Position numbers and translations under genes: made by a program. Source: Lineus longissimus (lineage: Eukaryota; Nemertea; Pilidiophora; Heteronemertea; Lineidae). From it: DNA of 64,000 nucleotides. Numbering within the stretch: position 1 is the first letter of the stretch; every line of letters begins with the position of its first letter. Positions 24,817 to 46,800 of this stretch are shown one piece after another. The notes beneath the pieces are model-generated. The model did no database searches, was not told the DNA's origin, and saw only the letters and a list, made by a program, of their open reading frames with translations. The stretch lies in assembly GCF_910592395.1 (NCBI RefSeq), contig NC_088319.1, forward strand, positions 14,322,001 to 14,386,000. The letters run 5' to 3'.

Positions 24817-26793
24817 ATGGCGACCAGAAATCAGACCTACATCATCGGTTCAATATTCCTCGCTTTTTCCGCCGCGTTAGTGAGCACCTACTATCTACGA
24901 TCGCAAAAAGGTTTTTCCGTCATCCATATATACATGTCATTGCTGATGGTGACAAGCAACTTGGCCATGCTTCGGTACCTAGTCCCAAGGCAGAAGTTCG
25001 TCGGTGCGAGATTGGTTTCGACGCATGCGCAGAAGCCTAAAGAAGTGGTTATTTCGCACGTGGCGAATGGAGGAACGATTGTGTTTGCACTGGGTGCCGT
25101 TTTCTTTGACACTGTGTGCTTCCTTGCGGAGATTGATTGCATAGGTGTTTTCATGGAAGTAGACTGTCATTGGAGGTCGCACCTTACTAACACGTTTTAC
25201 CTGACCCTAATGGTCCTATTCATAGGACTACAGATGTGGTTTCTGTTCTCTGAAAGTTACACGTTTGCAAAACTAGGTCATTCAAACACCAGCAAACATG
25301 TCTTCATCTTCAACACCATTGTCAATGTCACAGTTATCCTTTACACGAGTCTTCACGTGGTGATAACCGATGACAATGGTCCCATCTCATGCAGGGACTC
25401 CGTGTCCAAGGTAAACTCTACTGGGGCGTTAAAGTGCATCAACCATGGGACAAAACTGTTCAAACTTCGTAAACACTTGTTACCCTATCTCTACCCATTT
25501 CATTCGGAATACTGCATCCTTGCCATGACACTGAATCTGATTCTCTGGAAGCACTTCCTGAACGCCAGAAAATCCAAGGTGTGCAAACCAGACTTTGTGG
25601 GCAAGACTTGGGTCCGGCCGCGAGGTGGCAGACAAGCGGAAAGAGTGCCTGTTTCTCTTACATCAGCTGATATTGGATACGATGGCCCTGAACAGGAAAC
25701 AGACGCTTTGCTTCCAAAGCGGGAAAACGACAGGCAACCAGCTGAAATGGAGACTTCGTTAACTGAGACTTTCAACAGCATTCAAGTCGAGTCCAGGGAC
25801 GAGGATGCTGATGCAGACGACATGGATTCGAGTCTGCCTGCTGCCAGCAGATATGGGACAGTAGAAAATGGGGTTGAAAATGACGGTGATCCCATCCGGC
25901 GGGGAGGCGTGGTTGCCATATTCAAGGAGTGCGAGAGGTGTTCAGAATGTCTCAATCCAAGACCTCGTTATATCTACGGGCCGGGCAACGGTTGTGGTTT
26001 CTTCGCCTTCATAGGCTTTGCCCTCCTTATTGTCTACGCGGTCCCAGTTCTTCTCTTGCGATCTACTAATGGTTTTCGCATAGAAATATTCACCACACTG
26101 CACGTGCTAGGGATGATTCTGAACGTGATAATGATAGCAGCAGCTCTTTTGCTGGCGATCGGAACAAGCAGAAAACTGGATCTGGGACCGAAGCTCCATG
26201 AGACACTATCCGTCGGTTCTATTGCCCTAATTTTGTCGGCGTTAGTGTTTTTCATCTTTGATTTCCTATTTGCGGGCGCGGCGTTGTTTGTGGCTCTTCA
26301 TCCTCCAAACATGACCGAATTCAACCACGACCACCAAATGCCAAACGATGTTGCTGCCATGCGCCTCTTCGAGCAGAACGTACTGGATATCATTACCATT
26401 GCTACAGAGTGTCTACAGGTGGCCTTGCAGACCGACATTGTTATCAACAACCATCGGATGATGAAAAGGTCATACTTTGATGACGTCATTACCACGTCAA
26501 CCATGATGCAATGCACATCGTTTTTGATGGCGGCAAATTTGTGCAAATGGGTGGTCGGTTCGGTCGTTGAGATGCACCAGCCGAAACTCAACTGGGCACA
26601 GAGTTTTTATTACGGAGACGAGAACTGGAAAATGCTTGTTAGCTTGCTTTTTCCCTTTGTGATTTACTACCGGTTCCACTGTGCGATGGCGATGGCGGAG
26701 TACATGATCTGGAGGAGGGGGCTTCTCGGCGCTGGTAGGGCCAGGGCGAGCAGGGCAGGGTTTGTACCAACAATCGGAACATTGGCATACTAA
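24817..26793 (+). CDS. OTOP-like: otopetrin-like proton channel (658 aa)
   Basis: Otopetrins are 12-TM plasma-membrane proton channels used in acid sensing and, in vertebrates, otoconia formation. Hydrophobic segments are visible near residues 8-27, 34-53, 84-108, 125-146, 160-182, 225-248, 392-414, 423-448, 463-495, 517-540, 562-582 and 603-622, giving two six-helix halves. The halves are separated by a long acidic, polar linker (about 250-385). The signature LYPFHSEYCILA (residues 225-236) matches the conserved Y-P-F-x-x-E-Y block of the family, including the Glu in helix 6. Length is slightly above human OTOP1 (~600). The whole coding region is one exon from ATG to TAA, with favourable Kozak AAGATGG. 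It is transcribed convergently with the AFAP1-like gene. Which otopetrin subgroup it belongs to cannot be told. Confidence 0.85.
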   Translation: MATRNQTYIIGSIFLAFSAALVSTYYLRSQKGFSVIHIYMSLLMVTSNLAMLRYLVPRQKFVGARLVSTHAQKPKEVVISHVANGGTIVFALGAVFFDTVCFLAEIDCIGVFMEVDCHWRSHLTNTFYLTLMVLFIGLQMWFLFSESYTFAKLGHSNTSKHVFIFNTIVNVTVILYTSLHVVITDDNGPISCRDSVSKVNSTGALKCINHGTKLFKLRKHLLPYLYPFHSEYCILAMTLNLILWKHFLNARKSKVCKPDFVGKTWVRPRGGRQAERVPVSLTSADIGYDGPEQETDALLPKRENDRQPAEMETSLTETFNSIQVESRDEDADADDMDSSLPAASRYGTVENGVENDGDPIRRGGVVAIFKECERCSECLNPRPRYIYGPGNGCGFFAFIGFALLIVYAVPVLLLRSTNGFRIEIFTTLHVLGMILNVIMIAAALLLAIGTSRKLDLGPKLHETLSVGSIALILSALVFFIFDFLFAGAALFVALHPPNMTEFNHDHQMPNDVAAMRLFEQNVLDIITIATECLQVALQTDIVINNHRMMKRSYFDDVITTSTMMQCTSFLMAANLCKWVVGSVVEMHQPKLNWAQSFYYGDENWKMLVSLLFPFVIYYRFHCAMAMAEYMIWRRGLLGAGRARASRAGFVPTIGTLAY

Positions 26794-28847: not shown

Positions 28848-31800
28848 CTAAATCCGGAAGCCTTCGCTATGCGATCGCAAAAACATCTTGGACATCTTTT
28901 CAAATTCCTGAAATCGTGAGAGGATAATAATGTTAACGACGCCTTCAATAACTATATGTACGTTAACGGCCACCAAAGCAGACAGTAAATCATTATAGTC
29001 ATGCATCTAAAATCATGTTTTCTTATCCCAACGAATAGTTTTGAACACAAAAGACACAATTTGGTTCTAAAATAGCAGATATTTGCCACTTCTGTGTATG
29101 TGGTTATGCGCCTATACTGAAGTTCATTTAATATATTTGATCTCTGTGCGCCCCTTACCTCAATTTCCGCCAAAGCATTCGGGTCAATTTCCAATTTTGG
29201 CTTCGGTCTCGGCTGCTCGCTTAATCGTTTGTGTTTATCTTTCACACCCTCACTGACTTTCCTGGCGACAACATCAGCACCATCTGGTGAGGTCTGCGAC
29301 CGCGCCCGGGAATAAACCGCGGCCAATTGGGAAGAGGACTGACTCAGGTCCTCCGTGCTAGCCGAGGATTTTCGTGACTCCAACGTCGCAGATAGCGAAA
29401 GATTCTTAGACATATCACTTGAACTAAATGAGTTATGCATTCGTTTCTTTTCGTTTCTGATTTTGAGCTTTTCTTGTTGAGATTGCTGTTTCGTTAAGCT
29501 CTCGCTTATAGTTTCTAGTTTTCCGGTGAGTTCTTTTAAATGTGATTCTAATTGGTCCATCTTTGGCTTATTGTGTGCGTTATCAGTGCTATGGTCCTTC
29601 TTGTTCATGGTGAATTTGAATAAGCGTTTTTCAGGTTTCTTCTGAGATTCGTGAAGTTGTTTCTGGATCGTGTCGACCTGTCAGAAGAAAGAAACAAACA
29701 TAGGTAAAATACTGAAAATGGGATTTGTACAAAGTGTGAGTGCGGTGGTGCAGAGATGGGAGGAGCAAACACCTGACGGAGGGATCGTTCTTTCGAATCC
29801 CTGTGGAGCCACTCGCTCCTTCTTTCCACCCCGCCTGTCAGCACCGGAAGGCCGGGTATTGATGCACTCTCTTGAAATCCTCCGACTCAAGACTCTGGGA
29901 GGGGGAGCGCTTTGAGCAGGTATCTGTTGGAAAGTGCAGTTGAAGAAATCCACCTTTTTGGGGGCGAAAGTCACACAATTTGTTGTTGTCCTCAAACCTT
30001 TTTTCCACAGTTGGAAATCATTAGTAGCTGCATAGAGTAACCAGCTGGTAACGCTATGGTTGCTGCCACAATGTTGATGAGACCAAATAACTTCTTACAA
30101 GCTTCCATGCTCGTCACATTCTAAAGGAAAAACCTTTGCACTCAACCAGTAGTTCTCTTGACACCAAATCGAGTGACCTCGTACCTTAATTTGAGTTGAG
30201 ATTCTCCTCTGCTTCAGGTAAGTAATATCCCTGACCATCTGTAGCTCAGTATGCCCGTCCATGACGTCAGAAGCCTCACCAGTCACGTGATCGTGGTCGA
30301 GATCAGCGCACTCCGGCGTGGCCACCTTCTTGGATGATTTCCGCCTCGCTTGCTTGAGTTCAAGGTCGTGTTTTTGTTGAAGAAGTTCATTGAGGAGTTG
30401 TTCTTTCCGTATTTTGGCGAGTTCTTCAATGAATTTTCGCTTCTTTTCTTCCTCCTCTAAGTGATGATCGATATCTGGAAAGAAAGAGTATCTTTTTGAT
30501 GGGTGCGAGTGGTATGGATTGCTGAACTGATCATATTCATCGTGTCATATTTATCGTAACGTGTGCGAAGGGGAAGCCGGCATGCGGCTGACTCTGCCGC
30601 GTATTCGAGGATTGCTGATTTATGGATGACGAGGTGTTGTTCTCAGCTACCTGAGCGAAGTTACAACTTACCAATTTTAAAATCTCTACTGTTGGCATCC
30701 TCCAAGTTCAGACCTTCGATTGACAGCTTCGTGAGGTCGTCCTTCATGACGTCATGCCATCGGCGCGTCGTCTCTTCGGAGCCAGCGAATAATAGGATGG
30801 AGCCACTATCCTGTTGAGAAAAAGTGAACGAGTTATTGCATGAAGAGTGAATAAATTGCTACATGCATGTCGTGGACCTGACCACTCTGCCACCTAGGCA
30901 AATAACCAGTGGTGCTGGCTGTGGGTCTCAGTGGCGGCATCCAGTGACCGTTGTCAACATTATTTCCTATCCCGCTATTCGTATTTGTGTATAGTCCCTT
31001 CAAATGTGTTCGGAAATCGGCTTCAGCGGAGAATCAAGGGTTGAGTACCTCATAAAATGAAGTCAGTGGAGTGGCCCCGTAAGCACTGGTGTCTGCACGT
31101 CGGTCTAACATGCACAAAGACATCTTGTTGGTTGGAAGGAGAAATTCTCTGTCAATATTCGAATTTCGGTCAGAATTCTAGATGAATTATGCTTAAAGCA
31201 GTTGATGTGTCACTGTTTAATAACAACATATAATCTTATCTGTCACAGTCATGCGACCTCGGGAATGTTTTCAAAATTCGAACCTAATATGTTAGGAAGT
31301 TGGATCATATGATTATCAATGTCAAGATCGGCGAAAAGAGACTTTCTGATTCGTTGGAAACAAATTGAAAACCCCTCTGCGAGTTGGTCGATGTCACAGA
31401 ACTGATTGGCATATATGTGTCAGATGTAAGAAAATAGACTACAAAACCAAAAAGTGTCATTACCAACTTTCGCTGTCATTTTATTTTTGCTGGCCGCCGC
31501 TAGGGGCGCTCACCTTCAAGATGGATGCGCCCATGGAAACCGCGCTTCAGTGTGATCAGCCGTACAATCTACGCAAAAAAAATGTCAATTACACAGAACT
31601 GTTCGACTTAAAGATCCAAACTGAACGCAGAAAGGCTGTACGAGTACCCAACGTTGTTCTAGACGAGCAATATTTCATAGAAAGAATAATAACGAAGAAG
31701 AAAGAGGCAAGTGTTTAACGCAAACCTGCTACGCTAGCAAATATACACGCCAAATGTGTACAAATGCACGGCAAACTGTTGTGGTGTGTAACCATTTCAA

Positions 31801-34800
31801 ATTCTAATACAAATTATTGGGTGTCGTCGTTCTTTGACTTCTACTTGGGGTAAACTAGAGACCTACATTGTTGGACGGCCTGCCTAAATAGATTCCAGGG
31901 ACAGGGTTAGCCGTCTGTTTTTTTAAAAAGGCTATGTACCCCCCCCCCCTCCCAGTGGCAGTGATCCAGCACCCACTGGCAGCAGGTCACACTCCAAAAA
32001 TATTTGTGTTTATTCGCTTGCAGTAACCCTGCTAGGCCAAGTATAAGTACCATTTGCCTCCCCTTCTTGATTTTTTACACCCTTAAGGCCTGTTCCTCCT
32101 GTCGAGCTGCACGGTCAGCGAATTCCTTTGTTCAATTCCTGGCATTTGCTCTGGAATAAAGGATTTTTCCTTGCGGCGGTAAAACGGGACAGTCGGTTCA
32201 GGCCCTTAGATCCCAACCAGTGTGCAGGTTTTTAATAAAGTATCTTTTTTCAGGGGAAGTCCCTGCAGTACCTAGTACAGTGGAGAGGGTTCGGACTCTA
32301 TGATGTCACATGGGAACCAGCTTATCATATTCCCAAGGCGTGGATCGATCAATTCAACAATCCAGATATCGACTTAATCGACACAAAACGCCTCGTCTTT
32401 GCTTCGAAAGATTTTTATGAAACTCTTCAACGTGGTCTTGTAGAGGGCAGTGTTGAAGTGAAAATCCCGTTCCCACTTGACATTTTCCGTTACGTTTTTT
32501 ATGGCAAAGGACAACCAAATGATATCAATGATCAGGATCCAGCTTTTTTAAAGTATGACAGGGATGATTTTGCTGAACTAAACTTACCTGAAAACTGGTG
32601 GTACAGACTTGACAAGAAAGGACAAGGAGTGAAGGTTACATTCCCAGTGAAGGCCAAAACTGTGATTTCATTTTCCCATGGTTCATACTGTGTTCAAGAT
32701 GGTGTGTTAGTCAAAGGATGCAGATTTCCAAAGGAGTTCCTTGTGTTGAAAGTGTTGTCGGTTGCCACTGACGTTGCCACTTTGTTCGTTTGATGTCGCA
32801 TCCTTTATGATTTATTTGCCATTGTGATTTGGGCCTACTGTACATGCATGTAAGGTGTAACTTTGATCATCTTTACTCAGGAAAACATTTTTCACAAGGT
32901 TGTAGTTTCACTCCAGCACTGTCTTCAGAATGTCTGATTGTCTCAGTAAAGTACAGCTCATAAAATTCTCCCAGGAAGTTGCAACAGTCACATCATTTGA
33001 TTACCTTAGGTCAAGATGTAGTGAACCAATAGCCTTTTCCCTCAATCTTACTAATCTGTTTGTTAAGGAGTTAAGTAGCCTTAAAGCTAAATACCCGGAG
33101 CTCACATATGTTTCACTGCTTAATTGTGCTTTGCGGTTCTACAAAATCAAAGATTACTCGGAGCGTGTGAACCAGCGTTTGGCAACTATTTGTTCTAGAG
33201 TAACTAATGAATTTCGTGGACTGAAAGGTGGTAGACGTTTTCAACAGTTGAATGAAAAAAGCAGGTCATTGGCAATTTATGAAAGTGAATTGATTGATGT
33301 AAAAAAGCTGCAAAATGATCTACATTCTGTCACACAAGTAAGTGAGGAGTTGACAAAAAGGTGTGCCTCATTGTATGATGAACTTTTTTCTGTCAAGAAG
33401 GAAGTTCATCAGTTGCAAAATTCACATACTGAGTTAAAAGAACAGGTTGAAAAATTAGAAAGGGAACTTGCAGCCTTAAAAGATGAGAATGTGTTTTTGC
33501 ATGATCATATCAGAAAACTACAAGGGTATCCACTCAGAGCTTGTCAAGGTAAAAAAATTCCACACCTCAAGAGACAGCAGCAGGTGAGAAAATTGAAAGA
33601 GTTGAAATCTGCAGCAGAGCGTGCATTATGGTTTGCGAAAACCTATGGTCTGATCCCTGAAACTTTAACTCTAAAATCCACTGTCTCTGGAGAGTCACAT
33701 AAGGTAGATTTTCTTGACAACCATGCACACACTTCTTTTGAGAAAATACCAGTTGAAGAGAAGAAAAAAATTGAAAAACTTCTCTACATCTTAGACACAT
33801 TTTATGTAAGTGATGCAGCATACCACGAGATAGCCCTAACCAGTGACTCTGGTCTGCCATCGAAACATCTGATTGTTCAGTGCAGAAATAGCCTATCAAC
33901 ATTATTCACCATACATCGATGTAGCGGTGGTGTGCCAGGGGCCTATGTTGACTTTGAGGAGCAAATTTCAAACCTTATTATATACTCTCAAAGTGAAATG
34001 ACAGACCTGAAAAAGATTGTGAAAATCAGTGGTGATGGTGCCAAAATTACTAGGGCATCTAATTTTCTCACCATGTCTGTGTCCCTTCTCAAACAAGAGG
34101 GTTTACCTTGTAGCCCTACTGTCTTGGCTATTGTCAGTGCATCAGAATCATATGAAGTCCTTGACAAAGCTTTAGGTCCACTGATACTACAAGTCAATTC
34201 TGTCATTGACAAGGGTAAAATTCAGGTTGATGATCAGGAAGTCTCTATTGAAGTACTTTTTGGGGCAGATATGAAGTTTCTTCAGTTAGCTTTTGGACTA
34301 AATGGTTCAACAGCCAATCAAAGTTGTGTGTGGTGCAAAGTTAAGAAAGATGACCTGTGGGACACTTCAAAACCATGGGATCTGTACAGTACTGATGAAA
34401 TGAAGCGCACATACAAAAATGTTTGTGAGGATGCTCTGCAGGGTAGAAATGGAGTAACAAAAGGTATTCCTTTGTTCAAAATTGACTCTGACAGTGTAGT
34501 TGTTGATGAGTTGCATCTCATGTTGAGAATATCAGATGTTCTACTGCGTAATCTAATTTTTGAGACTAAGGATCAAGATGCAGAGCTTCATTTCAACAGT
34601 AGTGCCAAAGACAAAGCTTTGATAGGACCAAATTTGAAATGCTTGTGTTCTTCCATAAGGGCCTGTGGGGTAACATTTAATATCTGGGAAGCCAAAGACC
34701 CAGTTACCCATGGTGGAACTGGAAAACTGGAATGGACATCGCTTCAAGGTCCAGATATGAAAAAGTTACTCATACATTTGCCCCAGAAACTACGCTCATG

Positions 34801-37800
34801 TGATATCCTATTTGCTGATACTAAAGATGACATAATCAAACTTTGGGAGGACTTTCGGTCATTACATGTGTACCTCTGTGAAACACCACAAGATGTTGGT
34901 GATGTCCATTTAACATGTTTCCAGAAGGCAAAATCCTGGCTAGACAGCTTTATTTCCTTGGGAAATAAGCGGAAGGGTTATAAAAAATTGAACGTTACAC
35001 CTTACATGCATGTGTTAGTATATCATGCACCAAATGTTATCAGACATCATGGGGCATTGAAAAATTATAGTGCGCAAAGTGTTGAGAAGCTTAATGATAT
35101 TGTGAAGCGAGTAACTCTTGGAAAATGTAACCGGGCAGATGCCACCAGGGATGCACTACTTGTGCTGAAGAGAATAGAAAACTTGAAAGGTAAAGATTTG
35201 TCTAGAAGAAAGCGTTCTTATCATAAAGTATCTGAAAAGTACTGGGGGAGTGAGAAAAAGGAAAGGGCTCTGAGTAAGAAGCAAAAAATTCTTGAAGAAA
35301 TAGAAAATACTAATGTGCCTGATGAAGAATTCCCAAGCACTGTAGATGGAATAAAAAGCGAGCTTCACAAAAAATATGGGTACAAAACCACTGCCAGAAG
35401 TTATGAGAAATTGAAAAATATCCTGAAGATGAAGAGGAAGTTATCAACTTAGGCCAAATAAAAGAATAATTTCCAAAACTGAAGGGATCCAGTATTTTTT
35501 AGGTAGGTTGACCCCCCCCCCCCCCCTTTTTGAGAATATGGAGTCATTCCTGAAAAAGAGCGCAAAAATTTGATGAATAAGCTTTCATAATATGGTGTAC
35601 GTACTGAGTTTGTGGACAACTTTCAAGACTTAAAAGTAGTTTTGTTGGGGGTCAACCTACCATAATGTAAAAAGTATTGCAAAAATTTTGGGGCATCAGA
35701 GGTGAGCGGAGACTATCATCAACATATTTGTTATTTGATGAAAGCAGTTAACAGACATTTGACAAAGCTGGATTGGAAAATAACAAATTAATGTGTGTGA
35801 GAAAAGCACTGCAGAATCAAAGAAGTTTTGTTAAAGGCATTTTTCTGTTTGAAGTTTTTATTGTTGAAGTTTTCAAATATTTTTTATTGTAATTGTTTTG
35901 AAATATTTTTGTATGTACTTTTTAACATAATCAAAAGTGAAGCAAAATGCTCAATAAAGTTTTATTTGTATTGTTGATTAAATATTCTCCCTTTGGTGTT
36001 TGTATTTTAATCCTAGGATAGGCTAGGAGTATGACAGTAGTGTCATACTGAAAAACGCGGAACCTCAGTTGAGCCGTACTTCTGTGGGATAGGCCTCTTC
36101 TGACTACCTGTGTTTCACTCTGAAGACACTTTTGGAGATCAAATGACAGCAGAGCTTCTTGATTCTTTGTTCAACAGTCATTCTGAAAAATTTAAAGAAA
36201 GGCAGAGGACTGCCAACCCCATTTTCAGAGGTTATGGACTCTCTACCAATCCCTAGTTAAAACCTGCTTTGATAAGAGAGGCCCTTAGTTCTCACCAAAC
36301 CCCACATTTGAACTGTAAAATCAGTTGGCCAAAGCATTCAGCTGGTGGCACACCTTCGCCATCTAGCGGGAAGAAGCGAAACTAAAGCCCTTGAAGTAGA
36401 ATCCTTGGCGGGAACTTGATTTTCGATGGAGACGATTTTGGTGCGCTAATCTGATTTTATGGACTTTTATGAGCCAAATTAGGTTGAATGGATCATATTT
36501 CAACCAAAAAATGGAAGTGGATGGATGTTTTGAAAAAGAATACTTTTATATTGGATTTTATTGACGAACACCTCTAGTTTATAAGGCCAGGTGAAATAGA
36601 ACAATTCCGCCTCATACTTTTTGTCAAATTGCATTCGAAAATCGTGTATTTCAGCATTTTCCTGTTTCTCAAGGCCTCGTAATAACACTAGACTACTCAT
36701 TTTCAACAGCAAAAAGGAAGCGTATGAACTATTTCCTTTTGATTTAAAATTGATATGGCTGCCTTTATAAACACCTGAAGTTGCCAGATCCAGGTGAAAT
36801 ATTTCATTTCCGTTACTTATGTGACCATAGGAGGGGTTTTTCCTTAGCCGCCTATGCATTGACTGTACATACGCTGGACGTCGCGGTAGCGTCATGGCCG
36901 CGCCTGCGCACTACCCGATGGTAGCGAAAGTTGGTAATGCAATATTTAAGTTTGATTCATCGAATCGATGACAGTGATATCATGACAAATTGCGTTTGTG
37001 ATATTTTTAGATAGTCTAGTTTTTATGGAATTGTTTCCCCCTGTCAGATTGGAATAATGAACCCATTACTGCACTCCAGATTACCGCATTGTTGTCGAAA
37101 AACGCCGATCAGACGATTATCAAATAGTTCCGAATGATATTGGTGTCAAGTGTATGTATCTCATGATCCAAAAATAGATGTTATAAAGGAGGCTATAAAC
37201 CGGTTTCGAGTACCGAAATTTGGTCATCCTTTGTATCTATCTCCGAATCGTTGATCGTTCCTCATCGGAATCTATTCGTCATCCTAGTCATACTTTCTTC
37301 AGGGGGATTGACGGGACCGATCCACAGCCTTGTTTCACGCCATTTATGGTTAATTAAGTCACATGATATATACATGTAAACTGGTTACAGAAATGTAATT
37401 TGTAATGGGCTTGATGTTGTGCCTAGCATCCCGCCATGGAGAACTTATCTGATGATTCAAAACTCTTGTGAGAGACTTACCTTCTGTGACAGTTTAATGC
37501 CAGGTCTTCTGTCCAGCCCTCCTTCGTCCATAACGATAGAATATCTGGACAAGGTGATGAGGGTCTCGGGGTCGATTGCTGTATGGTTAGCGTAAAGTCC
37601 CAGGGTCAGATCATTGTAAACTGCCCAAAAGCTAGAAAAGACGTGAGAATTCAGTCAAATATCAAACATGTCCATGTCATGTCCAGAATATACGCTTATG
37701 TTTCAGACCCATAGATAATATGCCCCACAATGTGGATCTACTTGCATATACCATACCATACCCTTGTTTGGCGAATCTTGACATGTAACGTATTCTGATT

Positions 37801-40800
37801 AATAAACATTGCGTCAGTCTTATTTATTTTGGAGGAGAGCAAATTTGCAGTTCTTGTACCAATGACGCCATAACATGTGGCCAAACATCCTCACATGAAA
37901 ACAACGCTTCGAAACATACCTCCGCCAAAGGACGAAGCAATAAAATCGACAAACATGCTAACAATGCGACCCAAACATTTGAATTTGAGGGCTAAAGTAA
38001 ACATGCGAGGTTGTTTTCTTTTTTGTCCCTCAGAAATCATAAATATGCAATAGCTTGTTTAGGCACGTGGGTCTATCAAAATCTGCGGTGTCTATGTCAT
38101 GAAGTATAGATCCTGAAGCTTGGAGGAAAGAAGTAACCCGAAAAAGGAGAGCATTGGTGCCCCAGAGAGCACTATACCAAGAAGTTGTAACCTTCTTTAC
38201 AATAATTTCATTACACTTCTACAGCAAGTTGCGCGAAAGCGGACCGGATATGCAAGGCTCTGAGGTCACAACATATCTGCTGGCAGAAAGACATTATTCT
38301 TTAACTTTATGCATTCGAACTCTCATGGTTTAATACTCCCTTTAAATGTACGATGGCTTTTATGTGGTTGGACTTCATACTAGCTTACCTTTGACATATC
38401 CCGTTCTCATCTACCGCCTCGACCTGACCCTCAAGTGCTATCCGGGGGATGATGCTGGGCCGTCCTTGATGGAAGCTGTCATTGCTGGCGGAACGTAACA
38501 CACCGTACTTCGGCTCCAGACACTGGTTGTGATAGTCCGTAGGGATGTTGACACTACTTGAACGCTTACGGGTTCTTTCTTGGTTGTGCTAAAGAACAAT
38601 CGTAAGATGCATATTTAGCCGAATAAGGCGAAGTGCATATTGAAAGTGCAAAGATGTGGAATTAAGCGCACTCGGCGGAAATGAAGGCTGAAAGCTCTTA
38701 GAATGGTTGTTGAGTCGACCACCACATTGGTGCGTCTGCTCGGTTATGCGCCACAGTCGTGACATGCGGGAATCCATCACCCAAGGTGTTTTAGATGTGT
38801 CACTAATATCCCTTCACCGCTTTCTCCTCCTTGGCCTTAATTTTAGCTGCTATTTCGGCGAGTCTTTTCTGATCTAAAACCAGTATGTCCACTATCTGCA
38901 TGGGACGTAACACTGAAAAATAGCGTGCCTGCAAAGTGGTACCACTGAGGTTGGCGTTCTGAAACTGCCTTAATAGGAAAAGACGTGACTGGAAAATGAC
39001 ACCACTCCAAAGAATGATACAAACTGACCTGAGCACTGGAGTATACCACGCATAGACTAAGTATATTGTCACTAAAACCCACACTCAACATTGTTTATTC
39101 TCCTTGATGACCCCAAAGAGGACAAGTTACAAACTAGTCATAAATCTATAGATTGTAGATAATGGTGCGAATTAATTATGAATCATTATCTACATCATAT
39201 CAGTGAAAGCCATACCGAGACAAGTGGAGTAATAGCCCGTTGGCATGCCATTGATATACAATAGAGAGGTTCAGATGTTGATATGAGAACGAGAACAAGC
39301 TGGCATTTTGACGTCCGGTATCGCGTTGCAAGTTGTCAAGTTTTGATTTGGTTCGTTGGTACAAACATTATTTACTCACCCCTTCCTCACTTGCAGTAGA
39401 AGCAAGGGAGTCCCTCTTGATGCTGTTGTCGGAGAAGTGTCGTTTCAGCGCCGCGGGCTGGAGGTTTCTCCTCAAGGGTGTCTCCAGGGAACCACTTCGC
39501 CTTTGGCGCTGCCATCTCTCAGATAGCTCCGCTTCCACTCTCCTGTTTTCATTGTAAATATTCAAATCGTCTTCGCTGCTGCATTCACTTGCCGCGCTGT
39601 AGGCCAATCCCTCTGACAGTACGGGGCTCTCCGTCCCCGGAGCGGAAAGGTCAAGGTCAAGGTTAACTTTCAAGGTCAGGGGGCTAGAATGGAGCACCGG
39701 TGCTACAGCGGGTGCCAAGGTACTTTGATCACTTGGGATAATGATTTCTTCAGAACTAGAATCCGTCTTTGCATCAATTTGCAAAGTTGCAAAATTTTGC
39801 TCTCGTGTTTGACCTTGAAGCGGAGAGTCGTGTTCCTTAGCCTTCTCGTCACCACAGTCCGGGTCATCCAAAGCTTTGGCTGGATCAGGCACCTCTTTCG
39901 TTGGCGACTCGGCATCTAATGGATTTGAATGAATTGCTTTGATGATTTCAGCAGAGTACGTGTCATCCTTTGACTTTCTGTGATGAGGCACCTTCGCAAC
40001 CGTTGGAGGTTTGGCGTCAGTGAGCATGTGGCCCGTTGAACGCCGATAAGTGTCATTGTCAAAGCGTTTCAGAGGCGATGGAGTTCCGTGCCTATTTTTA
40101 CGAAGAGCACTCTCGTCTATGGACAATGCCGAATCTTGTTCCGATCTGAGGTCGACAAGGTCTTCCAGAGATCTCCGAACGCCATCGTCAAAGCAAAACG
40201 ATTCGGTCGTGCTACGAAGAGCAGACGACAAAGCTACATTCGGAACTTGTACGTCATTTCCGGGCAAAAGTTCCTGGATCCAACGACTGAAATCATATCG
40301 ATCCTGTGCAGCGAAGACGTGGTCGTTCCCATCAGACGTGACCTTGAACTCAAATCCGACCTTGTCCGTTATTGCGACATGACTTACACTCAAATCAACA
40401 CATATCTCACAACGTTCAGCTGGACCTTTAGTCTTAAATGAATACATTTTACCTTCGTGTATCACACACCAGCATTTTGTAACTTTGTTATGGTCCTTAA
40501 ATCTCAAATACGTTGCCAAGGTGACCTTTTTGAGCGATTCTAAAGTAACCTTGACCTTCTTTACTCCCTTTTTCCCGCCGTTGTGTTTGCGCATGGGTAC
40601 CGGCGAGCGTGGCAATTTCAACCCAGCGAACCCTTTTGATCTTTTTGGCGTAATTTTTTCCATCAAAGATTTTGAATGTGAATGTTTAGTTTGCTTATTT
40701 GCCTGAGATTTCTGCTGTTCCCGATTGGTTGCCATTAGGTATGAGACTCTCCTCTGCGGCATAGGGGAGAGTTGCGGTGGTTTGGACGTCGGAAGAGGTG

Positions 40801-43800
40801 CCAGGCCTTCTTCATCACCAGATTCGTCAGAAGTCGACGGGGCTTTGTAGCTACCGGTGGAGCTCTGAGGCGAGTCCCCGGCAAGATAGTCCGTTTTGCG
40901 GAACAGTGCTGTTCCACCACCAGTATCATGCTGGTGTAGTTTATCATCCCGCGTCACTGATCCTTTGGCGGTTGGGTTATACCCAGGGGATTCCTTCATG
41001 TCCTTCACAGGGGTTGGGTAGTACCCACTGCCCATGCTTCCGTTCACGGAATCCGCATCAACATCACTGGCGCTCTCGTCTGATGAGTAAATGTCCGTAC
41101 TGTGATCAACAGCGTGTCGCAGGGCCTGAAGCCATTCATTATGATCCACGATACTATCAGCGGCGAAGACTTTCTCCTTCTCATTGCACGTACTACTCAC
41201 AACAATCTGATACTTCCTTGTACTTCCGTTTCCGGCCGACGACCGGAAGAACATCTCGCGCACGGCGCATGCCGGAAGAACGAACACATCACTAGCCAAG
41301 TTTGATTGGTCGTTTTCGAAGACACAAAACAACATATCATTGATGACGCACCACTTCTTGCTATCGTCTGCCTGGTCAATCAACCAACCAGAAAAATCAG
41401 GATCCAGGAGATCGACCATAGAAACGTCAAAAGATCCCCTCATCTCCATTTTGAGATATTTGCGAAGTTTCCGCTTCACTCGTTCAGTAACCGAGTCTCT
41501 TCGGATATTGCGGCCGCGTGGTTCGGGGATTTCGATGACCGATTCGTTGTTCCCACGTTCTTCATCTTCGCTGAGGCTCGACGGGTTTCTCACGCGTTCA
41601 ATCTTTAGGATGGGCAACTGAAAGAGAAGAGTAGAGTGATATCCGGACAGTGAGATAGGTTAGCTGTTGCGACACGCGCCAGAGAGTGAACGATATACGG
41701 ACCAAAGTCAAGCCAGCTCGAATTCTTTCCGCAACTGACAGCCAATATCAAGTTATGCCTCGTCGTTCATGTAGATATCCATTTTATAACGGCTTGGAAC
41801 AGGACTTACAATGTAACATCAGTCAAACATAGTGCTCGCTCTCTCATACATTTGTCATGTCAACTGAACAAAAAGTAGAGTGGCAACTTCAAAGTTGTTG
41901 AGATATTGGTGTAGGCTGAACGTCCTCCAACAAGGGTGTTTAACTCTCACCAAAACAAAACGTCAAGTGTTCACTAACTTGGCACAGGGGAGGAAAATCA
42001 TTAAGCTTCTCCATGTGCAGCCCAATTAATCCTAGGCCTGCACCTCCCGCGGTTGATATCCCGGCGCGTGCCGCGAATTAAAGAACAACGTCCTTGGTGC
42101 CCTAATGTTCCCAGGTTATCAGAAGTTACATTAACGAATTTTTAACTCGCTTTACTAACAATCCTGGTGAGCGCATATTTCATTCCGATTTTTACATTCT
42201 TAAAGGCGAAGTGCACCATTTAACATTTGAATTTGAATTTTCCAATTCGGGCGATATACGCCCTGAATTGCTGTTGTGTGTACGACATGGATACAGAATC
42301 ACTCTGCTGCCAAGTTTTATCGCTCTGGCTGTGCAATTCACTGCATTAAGGCCACGTGTACCTCCAGCGGGACATCTCACAGGAACGAACCTAGCCTTTG
42401 ATTACCATTCACATTTGCTTGAAACCTGCTTAATTCAATCGGATTTGATTTAAAATGTTTGCCCAAGGGCTGATGGGGAGACGCTTGCTTTTGGAGCACA
42501 ACTGTTAAACCAGAAATATTGACAAAATGTCTCACTGTCACTATTGCATAATCTCCTTGAAACATATCGATATGTAATAGGTAATAACAGTAAATTATAA
42601 ACCCAGCACTGTTTCCCACCTAAATTAGGGCCTGAATGTAATATTCTCTTCGCGAAATTGATACCTTCAAAACATTTAAACGTATGCACATACTGAGTGC
42701 TTCAATTACATTATGCAAATCAAGCCAGTGCGGCAGTCCAGAACTTCCTGGAACAACAGTATTCTGAATCAGCTTGGCTTGTTGAGGGGACTTTTTTGTT
42801 GAGAGATCTCAAACCATCACATTCTTGAGGCAGGAGACCGGTTGAGGAACACCGTCGTTGTGCGTATATCCGAGACTTAGGACTGATAATCACCGCCGAC
42901 AAGTCAGCATGGTATTTACTAGGGTCTTACATTTAAGGATTAACTTGAAATTGACTGAAATTTCCAACAGGGAGGCAGCTTTGGTCAGCACGACACCCTC
43001 GGTGACAGTCCTATGGTCATTGGCCTCAGTAATCAAGGGTCGTTGTATCAAGTAATTACTTACTCTCCAGCAGGGAAAGCAGATTTGACGAAATGTAGCA
43101 TGAGACCAAGGATATCAAATAATGCTCAGGTCGTTTTGCTCAATGGCCATTGCTTTGATATACCAAGACCTAATTTACAAAGGAGTGTGCTGGGTGCGGT
43201 TATAGAAAATGCATGTTGGTATGATTTTTACCTTGAATTATTTCACAGAAGCCTCATCCCCAACAAGTATACGGATTCATCACGGTCCTCTGTTTGATGT
43301 GCGGGGGTGGGGGAGGGGAGTTTAAAAAGTGGGCCTTAAAGGCTACATCTCCGAAGCAGTCTCCGTACCGAGTGAAAATCCCCGCACAGGATCCGTCCAT
43401 TGTCAAAAAAGGATATTGTCACAAAATATCAGAACGATGTATACCCAAGAGTGCACTATAAATTAAAGGGAAATTCCAAGCAAAAAAACTGTGAAAAATA
43501 AACACTTGAGCTCAGTATAATTCATTGAAAAAAACCCACTTGTTTTCGATAAGGTGATATCAACACTCTATGACCACAATATATGGCCCGCGGTCAAGTG
43601 CCATCCAGATTTCTGGGAAGAGTGAGTGACCTCAAGGACGTCCCCTCCTTCTTTCTACCCACAGCGAATTTCTTGCTAAGAAAAACAACCTAATAAGTTG
43701 ACCATCTGCCAGGAATAAATTCATAATAGTCACCCGCCCGGCAATAATAGGATGCATTGATAACAAAACACCCTGTACACACTAATAATGTACACTTCTG

Positions 43801-46800
43801 CACAGTGTATCATACCTGTGTATATAAACAGGAACTGAGGCACTGGAAACGAGGTCACTACCTAACCTCGATCAATAGCATTGTTGATATACAACGCGAA
43901 CGCCTCGTTAGTCATAGCGGGTTTCGTAGTGTAGTGGTTATCACGTCCGCCTCACACGCGGAAGGTCCTGGGTTCGACCCCCAGCGAAACCAACTTATTT
44001 TTTTATTTTTTTTAAAATACGTTTTCTTTTTTAGTTTTCTTGAATGAAAATGTGTTTAAGCGCGAAACAGTATCGATCGGCGACTTAATCACATCTTGGT
44101 ACCTGGCCCTGCCTGAAGTCTCCTTTAAAATGGCGGACGGCCTAAATTGTAGTTTGACTTTTAATTGTAGTTTGACTTTTACACCCGACCGACCGTAGTT
44201 GGTTTTAACTAAATGTTGCAGGTACCTGTATATCCGAATTATGGAGTGGAAAATAAACTTACTGCGGTTTGAGAGTCTATCGACGTCACATTCGTGCGCT
44301 CCATCGTCACATCCGGTTCCGGCATTTCGTTGTCTGGTCCTTCTGCCGATTTGTCTTCTTCCTCCTCTGCCATCATAACATTTTCATCGTTCTTTGAACC
44401 ATTTGCTTCTTCATCTGAAGCCGATTCCTTGTCGAAAAACCTCCTTTTTGTTGACATTGACGACCTTGACCAAACGTGATCATGCTCTGGCATTGCTTCT
44501 TCGATCACTTTGGCCAAGTCTCCATTTTGGTTCGGAATTTCTTTCGCGGGGCTCTCAGTTTCACTGCCCTTGCTCCTCGGATGTGATTCCGAGGTAACAT
44601 GCGGTACAGAATCGCCATTTCGTTTAGAGTGATGGCCAAGGCCATGATGGCGGTGTTTTTTCGATTTATGTGGCTCACACAGACCCTTCAGGTGGAGAGT
44701 TTCCAAACTGAGTCTGTTTGGTCCCAGGACGGTGGTATTCTGGTTGATGTCACTGTTTTGCCTCGTCGGTTGTCGAAACTGATTGGTTTGTTCTTTGACG
44801 TTTATGAGAAGTTCTTGTATATCGCGTCGTTTTGCTTCACATGTGACCGAGATATTTTCTTCACCCAGTTCCGCCAGGAACTGGAGAGTTGACGAAATGG
44901 CCACGGAGAAATCTGAAACGGTAGAAAAGCGATCGTAAGAATGGTTACAAGGCGAAGAATAACGGTTATTTAAGATTGTACACTGGACAACACCAAACTG
45001 GCTTCACCTGAATGAAATAAAAGACATTTAGAAGAAAGCTGCTGTCTTCCAGTTTCATGCTCCTCCCCTCGCACACCCATTTTTTGCTGAAAGGCCCTAA
45101 AGCGGAAAACAGCCGTTCTTTTTTACGATTATAATGGCATCATATCAAATGTATCCACACTTAACCCATTGAGGTGACGTGACTGTCAAACGCCGTCATT
45201 CCTTCACAACAAACATATCCTGGCATTATTTTGTCAAGAAATTCCTTATTATTTAGAATTGTACGATTTCCTTAAATTCGCTTTCTTCCCACCCAATCAA
45301 AATCGAAGTATGGAGCGTAACAACAGAAAAGTCTCCGTTATCCTCTATTGCATCCACTTCAAATCGGCGAATGTCTGCAATACGAGCTTCACCAACAAAT
45401 ATACCGGAGTATAAACGGAAAGCGTGGTCAAATTTATTATACCATATGCCTATTTTATGGGATTTTCCTGGAGAACTGATACGTCATTAGAGTAATTACC
45501 CTCAGCGCAAATGTTTGCAAAGTTGAACTCGAGTCCGGTAAGGAACAAAGCGCGTGTGTTTTCGCTTTGGTAAAGCCATACATAGAGGTCGAATTCCTCT
45601 AATTATACTTAATATCATTGCAAACTTGAACGTCCAAATTTGTAGGCCTTTTTTCTAACTAGCCATCCTGAGACCAGGCATTTTTGTTTGAAATATCGAG
45701 AGGCGGAGTATACTGAAAACAACTGGTGCCAGGATGCTTACTAGCTGGCCTTCGTGGAACCTGGTGAGACTATATATGAAAGCAGCATATTATCATATTG
45801 TCATGATTTATTAAAGATCCATGGATGACGATAACGAATTCACTTGTTGCCGGTCCATTGAGCCCAGCCATCCCATGTCTTCTTTCAACACCGGTGTAAA
45901 GGTCTGAATAAGTTTATGGCCATCTACAATATTTTAGAACACTAAAACGTTTTCAACATGCGTAATAAGTCACTCTTTACACATTCCACGATCAAAGTAT
46001 GGCTTTTACTGCATTTAATTCCTAAGTATACAGACCTTGATTTTGACTTAGTTAGGGTAGGCCAAGAGTTCAAAGAAAATTGTGCCTTTTTCAATAACGT
46101 TATTTGGAAACACACGATTCTTATCTCGGTGGTCGACTACACGCCATACTCTGACGCCCAGCTCTGATGTTTTAGTACATGTATGTAAATCTGGCAATGT
46201 TTCGTCAAAACCGCATTTTATGACACAGCTATTATGAGATACGACAAAATGGGCCCCTGTATAGGGTTTAAGACACTTTATGACAGATATAAAGCTATCT
46301 ATCCGGACGATAAAAACACCCAGCACAGCAACCATGCCTCAGCTATCCGGGGACGAAAAAAAGGTTGATATCGGTGAATTGTATTGGACGTTTCGATTAA
46401 TGATATTAAAGATAAGATTCACCAGTAAAAAGCTTGATCATTATGACCTGTATAGGTCGAGGAATGATTTTCAATTCGAAAGTACCACAGAAATACGTGT
46501 ACATGCCTGTTCCGCGGGCTCATCTTGACCCGCAATGTCGATAGTGCTGACGCAAACGCATGAGAGTCAGGATCGTTCCAGCTATGATTTGATAGATGAG
46601 AGAATGTACATAAAATATCCTTTCAAAAACCTTTTTACATCCTGCAAGGACTTGCTTCGTTTGCTCGGTTGCATTACGACGTAAAACGGGTTCGCAGCCA
46701 TGTCAAACCTTTTTTCTGGTTTAAACTCATGTCATCGACCAAGTTTATGAAGGAGGCAACAATTAGGAGACAAACATGAGGGAACTTGGCCACCCGGTGA

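Follow-up and report, generated by a model that had tools for sequence, protein, structure and literature searches.

What is an intact open reading frame with the active-site spacing of the RAG1 recombinase doing in the genome of the nemertean Lineus longissimus, and does it act alone? The question is raised by a stretch of 64,000 nt (GCF_910592395.1, NC_088319.1, 14,322,001-14,386,000, forward strand; hereafter the window), in which a first-pass annotation had singled out open reading frame 2 (ORF2). We find that ORF2 lies inside a mobile, recently active element with two genes, and that its product has the predicted fold and the conserved catalytic and zinc-ligand residues of a RAG1-type core. 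We consider it probable that ORF2 encodes the transposase of a 5,482-bp transposon that is autonomous, was active recently and carries two genes. The element would belong to a sister lineage of Transib/RAG1, with the product of ORF1, the upstream gene, as partner of the transposase.

The limits of the element lie where homology among three copies stops, at inverted repeats beyond which the flanks are unrelated:

31458..36939, + strand: whole element, 5,482 bp
31458..31474, + strand: left terminal inverted repeat, CATTACCAACTTTCGCT, 17/17 identical to the right end
36923..36939, - strand: right terminal inverted repeat, a 17/17 match to the left
31506..31509, no strand: GCGC within a GGCGC-type box, at 49-52 bp counted from the left end
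36900..36909, no strand: GCGCAGGCGC box, at 31-40 bp counted from the right end

Across the assembly (391 Mb, 30 contigs) we found 40 matches to ORF2. Two of them, in the window and on contig C1, are full length with 100% protein identity, and a 100% identical fragment lies on C20. The C1 copy (5,481 bp) differs from the window copy only in having one base fewer in a C-run, and the C20 copy (2,854 bp) retains ORF1 whole with the interior of the transposase gene deleted. Because a second copy carries one difference in 5,482 bp, the terminal repeats are perfect and a deletion derivative exists, we conclude that the element was active recently. The genome check for further copies with terminal repeats, which the first-pass annotation had proposed, thus yielded a second full copy, a deleted copy and perfect 17-bp repeats. 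Six further ORF2 families occur in the same genome: B (L034/L037), C (L035/L010-L025), D (L038/L017/L022), E (L039/L026), F (L036/L014-L019) and G (L008/L009). Within these families the copies are ~94-99% alike in DNA, so that several were recently copied, by transposition or by duplication.

The ends have a recurrent design. The element has CA..TG termini, and CATTACC opens both ends in family A (that of the window) as well as in family C, whose copies on C15 and C10 encode an ORF2 34-35% identical to the window's and end in CATTACCAGCAAT. The family C boxes are a left GCGC at 46-49 bp and a right GCGCATGCGC at 30-39 bp. These positions hint, in two families only, at a GCGC box that sits nearer the right end (30-40 bp) than the left (46-52 bp). 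When terminal inverted repeats were sought in L033-L040, six of them re-examined, a convincing pair appeared only in L035; the ends of family B could not be delimited, and no such repeats showed where homology stops in families B and D-G. Near its 3' end, in the subterminal part, the element also contains a 43-bp direct repeat (72%; window 36567-36609 and 36770-36812), which is possibly transposase-binding or regulatory.

The transposase gene and its landmarks, all on the + strand, are as follows:

32930..35452, +: ORF2, RAG1-like transposase, 840 aa (translation, relatives, profile matches, structure model)
33299..33526, +: coiled-coil helix, residues 124-199 (structure model, low confidence, blocks with a predicted local distance difference test score, pLDDT, of 49-75)
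33755..35215, +: RAG1-core-like region, residues 276-762
34034..34036, +: D369, putative first catalytic Asp (30-sequence alignment, model strand 361-372)
34268..34270, +: D447, predicted second catalytic Asp (GADMKF aligned to RAG1 GYDEKM)
34325..34336, +: C466 and C469, predicted zinc ligands (CVWC aligned to RAG1 CTLC)
34505..34516, +: D526-x2-H529, invariant D-x-x-H motif (family alignments)
35009..35026, +: H694-x4-H699, predicted zinc ligands (TPYMHVLVYH aligned to RAG1 TNYLHKTLAH)
35084..35086, +: E719, predicted catalytic Glu (aligned to the RAG1 chain by HMMER)
35342..35446, +: SAP-like C-terminal helix pair, residues ~805-839 (Pfam SAP in 2/18 relatives, best 7.5e-4)

The reading frame runs through 840 codons to a single terminal stop, and the residues named in the first-pass annotation (D369, D447, C466-x2-C469, H694-x4-H699 and E719) are all present with exactly the intervals it gave, 19 residues from D447 to C466 and 20 from H699 to E719. 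We take their RAG1 equivalents to be D600, D708, C727/C730, H937/H942 and E962. The spaced patterns D.{18}C..C (at 447) and H.{4}H.{19}E (at 694) each occur once in ORF2; upon shuffling ORF2 20,000 times, 503 shuffles contained the first pattern, 845 contained the second and 12 contained the two together in order, a chance of ~6 in 10,000. The seven key columns are invariant in all eight members of the first family alignment, and the D-x-x-H motif at D526 and H529 is likewise invariant in the family. With these two columns added, 20 of the 21 fully covered members of a 30-sequence alignment read DDCCDHHHE, the sole deviant having Y in place of H699; the remaining nine are partial, and one of them has S at C469. 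A FastTree phylogeny from the same alignment is family-internal and exploratory.

The fold points in the same direction. In HMMER comparisons with family profiles, D447, C466/C469, H694/H699 and E719 align to the RAG1 chain; the printed alignments stop short of D369, which is matched to RAG1 D600 only via its place in model strand 361-372. The best fold and profile matches of the ORF2 family are RAG1, ProtoRAG and HzTransib; the best structural alignments give 14-15% identity to each of RAG1, RAG1L and Transib. Profile and structure model together give ORF2 a RAG1-core fold, bearing out the RAG1-type core with an RNase H fold that had been claimed for it. Likewise, the listed 25 of the 41 weak Pfam matches to ORF2 include no RING finger, in keeping with the first-pass annotation, and no SAP either; we found no Pfam-recognised RING or Chapa-type N-terminus. 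The claimed N-terminal coiled coil survives as a modelled helix of low confidence. A comparison with PF12940, also proposed at the outset, turned out negative: the ORF2 core queried alone had no match. Queried as a single sequence against Pfam and the PDB, ORF2 returned coiled-coil and chance-looking matches only; we regard DivIC, ZapB, myosin and the like as coiled-coil noise, and dismissed a TetR_C_40 match on the core (3.8e-4) that falls under its own cut-off.

The same genome contains RAG1L loci recognised by PF12940, one on C7 with three stops (L041, G000:C7:11998413-12000092) and one on C16 in five pieces, two of them with one stop each (L042-L046, G000:C16:11365392-11368190). Frames upstream of both hold cysteine-rich stretches, which we take to resemble the Chapa/N-terminal region. 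In hhalign, the family alignment matched the broken C7 RAG1L weakly, over 446-548 only (E 0.03, probability 1.6), with D526-x2-H529 opposite its DSTH.

What the first-pass annotation missed is a partner, for ORF2 is one of two genes and the other is predicted to encode a chromodomain protein:

31521..31712, +: ORF1 exon 1, 64 aa, ending inside the chromodomain (predicted spliced model)
31713..32253, +: ORF1 intron, GT...TTTTTTCAG (predicted)
32254..32793, +: ORF1 exon 2 (predicted spliced model)

This splice model was picked among 19 frame-keeping combinations because a complete chromodomain results. The predicted ORF1 has 243 aa, with the chromodomain at 49-100 (Pfam Chromo, E 6.5e-10, 39.2 bits against a curated cut-off of 25.1; best PDB match CDYL2, 4.1e-9) and a C-terminal part that has no Pfam match. 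As in CDYL/HP1-type proteins, aromatic residues occupy the three places of the methyl-lysine cage, and they do so in families A, B and C; unlike those proteins, ORF1 lies inside a transposon and its C-terminal part stays unmatched. By tblastn, an ORF1 gene precedes the transposase in family B (4e-16) and in family C (3e-13), and partial ORF1 genes occur in L030, L024 and L003; a hidden Markov model of ORF1, for which families A-C and L030 served as input, gives the same picture. Exon 2 of families B and C shares 27% identity with that of the window, and the first exon there ends near RIITR(K/R), just before the YLV of exon 2, so that the chromodomain is split alike. Order, strand, C-terminal part and open frames are the same in families A-C. 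No RAG2L gene (kelch plus PHD) was met in the element, the only place searched for RAG2: the upstream gene is the chromodomain protein, and the minus-strand frame 36503-36895, the only one of at least 90 aa outside ORF2, had no Pfam match at E up to 0.1.

ORF2 has relatives in other animals. A first protein search returned seven (24-85% identity), and a profile search with 19 listed matches added 16 more (P0009-P0024). Their sources include the nemertean Tubulanus polymorphus, the molluscs Mytilus coruscus and M. galloprovincialis, and the cnidarians Exaiptasia diaphana, Acropora cervicornis and Paramuricea clavata. The relatives that bear names are labelled unnamed, hypothetical or uncharacterized. 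Searches of prokaryote genomes (one peptide pattern from the eight-member alignment), of phage records (the ORF2 protein) and of IMG/VR contigs (one pattern from the family alignment) yielded no relative. C-termini vary: the distant relative P0008 (1013 aa) has a long C-terminal extension to which Pfam gave no name at E up to 10 and which, by its motif, seems to resemble an Ulp1-type protease. Where ORF2 has its SAP-like helix pair, P0007, P0013 and P0018 show by eye a CCHC-like zinc knuckle (Pfam zf-CCHC_2 0.13 in P0007).

Several observations weigh against our explanation. None of the five insertions examined in families A and C is adjoined by a direct repeat of 2-10 bp, as against duplications of 2-5 bp in the CMCT clade and 5 bp in RAGL, which leaves the joining step unexplained. 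The profile E-values for RAG1 sum over two stretches that are individually weak (0.017-0.24 and 3-5 for the best chain). With ORF2 as a single query, RAG1 was absent among the 25 of 41 Pfam matches listed and from the PDB sequence matches; the PF12940 scores seen for relatives lie below the cut-off, the best being 17.0 against 25 bits. The structure search cannot separate Transib/RAG1 from CACTA/Mirage/Chapaev (CMC), because no CMC structures are in the match lists. As for ORF1, its splice is predicted from sequence, the single-sequence structure model of its exon 2 is worthless (pLDDT 36.6), and exon 2 was not found within 8-9 kb around each of D, E and F (L038, L039, L036), nor in L040 or L033, the last of which does show a match resembling exon 1; the model, with only families A-C and L030 behind it, could overlook an ORF1 that has diverged further. 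At the insertions themselves, we judged as chance an offset TCAT repeat, one base off on each side of the C15 insertion, and a 9-base word common to -19/+24 there. In the flanks at C20 and C10, words of six and seven bases recur at a distance.

Given its closest matches, the element could be a diverged Transib or RAGL transposon proper, a reading we hold to be quite unlikely. Its ends do begin with CA, and 14-15% identity is lower than, yet not far from, the <22% given for Transib versus RAG1/RAG1L (PMC7204232; this and the other papers are cited from excerpts); a combined RAG1L-core and Transib set averages 26% (PMC9435367). It shares with RAGL (ProtoRAG, TransibSU) and vertebrate RAG1-RAG2 the core fold, the spacing of the Asp-Asp-Glu (DDE) residues and zinc ligands and the presence of a second gene whose domain is of a chromatin-reading type, and with autonomous Transibs, as PMC4411706 describes them, the small number of intact copies. 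Transib, however, is described as a single gene with CAC ends and 5-bp duplications, and RAGL as having ends with an invariant CAC, duplications of 5 bp and RAG1L and RAG2L genes that converge (PMC7204232) or, in AanRAGL, diverge (PMC9435367). The Lineus element, by contrast, has two genes in tandem on one strand, a chromodomain gene where a kelch-PHD RAG2L would be expected, CATTACC ends, no 5-bp duplication and a transposase with a coiled coil in place of a recognisable RING or Chapa-type N-terminus. A PF12940 genome scan at E up to 0.001 listed the C7 and C16 RAG1L loci and no locus of the ORF2 family. Because the ends read CATTACC rather than CAC and duplications are lacking, a sister family fits better than the RAG1/Transib branch, the other half of the placement first offered. 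Somewhat more plausible, if still unlikely, is a lineage inside CMC that looks RAG1-like only because the structures solved in the wider group are those of RAG1 and Transib. It would account for the C2C and H3-4H motifs between the second D and E and the CA..TG termini, which are common to the CMCT clade (the termini mostly; PMC12730594), and it gains from the lack of CMC structures in the match lists. Against it, the matches listed for 10 proteins at E up to 10, most of those above 0.1 having been filtered, do not include the CACTA model Transposase_21 (PF02992), whereas Pfam RAG1 was matched in three of 20 proteins. The 2-5 bp duplications of the CMCT clade (CACTA/EnSpm, Mirage, Chapaev, Plavaka, ESTA and Lanisha) are not seen here. 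The KDZ, hAT, MULE and P models were equally unlisted for the same proteins, hAT and KDZ being the unrelated superfamilies that the first-pass annotation had put up as its test. Chapaev and Chapaev3 are counted as clades of the Transib superfamily with a Chapa zinc domain, which is not recognised in ORF2, and two Chapaev subgroups have a RING finger (PMC4411706). ESTA, called RAG1-like by HHpred, is fungal, with TET/JBP and TA duplications (PMC12730594).

The role of ORF1 can also be read otherwise. As a captured host chromodomain gene with no part in transposition, it would explain the closeness of its chromodomain to host-type CDYL2 and the families in which exon 2 was not found. Neutral cargo is expected to decay, yet the frames are open, and order, strand, the split of the chromodomain and the C-terminal part are kept in three families with an exon 2 only 27% identical; we therefore think capture very unlikely. 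That ORF2 is a domesticated host gene, the second half of the earlier proposal 'recently active or domesticated', has the long intact frame in its favour and is scarcely credible in view of the near-identical copy on another contig, the perfect terminal repeats and the deletion derivative. Recent activity is the half that stands. Spy elements, a PIF/Harbinger-related group, resemble the Lineus element in having no target-site duplication, a likeness by description only. Spy DNA transposons are so characterised in a title cited in PMC12730594. Among the titles and abstract openings found in the literature (Repbase lay outside the search), none describes a chromodomain-bearing RAG1-type transposon.

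The host neighbours in the window are:

24817-26793, +: otopetrin-like gene
39371-41617, -: PH-domain reading frame
43920-43992, +: tRNA gene

Returning to the two-gene transposon that we favour, its parts suggest how it may operate. ORF2 would dimerise through its coiled coil and grip both ends via the CATTACC heptamer, perhaps with the inner GCGC box as well. Cutting would follow RAG1-type DDE/two-metal chemistry, the flank probably being left as a hairpin, and the excised element would be pasted elsewhere. ORF1 may steer the complex to, or hold it on, chromatin in which a histone tail is methylated. For RAG1 that role falls to the PHD finger of RAG2, which ORF1 would parallel. The lineage would be a sister of Transib/RAG1, neither Transib nor RAGL, in a wider group with CACTA/EnSpm, Mirage and Chapaev. 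As far as sequence can tell, the Lineus element works like RAG1 without being filed under RAGL or Transib. More tentatively, and with the odds somewhat against it, these elements could form an unnamed animal superfamily that combines a RAG1 core with an independently paired chromodomain partner, duplication-free integration and asymmetric bipartite ends recalling the 12/23 arrangement.

RAG1 is the enzyme that cuts antibody genes, and the Lineus element looks like a separate relative of the transposon from which adaptive immunity arose. How RAG1 acquired a histone-reading partner is an open question in the origin of V(D)J recombination. If our explanation is true, a second RAG1-type lineage with its own chromatin reader would suggest that this pairing arose more than once, and repeated pairing would point to a selective reason, such as choosing or tolerating chromatin, rather than to accident. 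If the absence of a duplication holds, the joining step would be unlike that of RAG and Transib. The intact element and its near-identical second copy are directly usable in a transposition assay.

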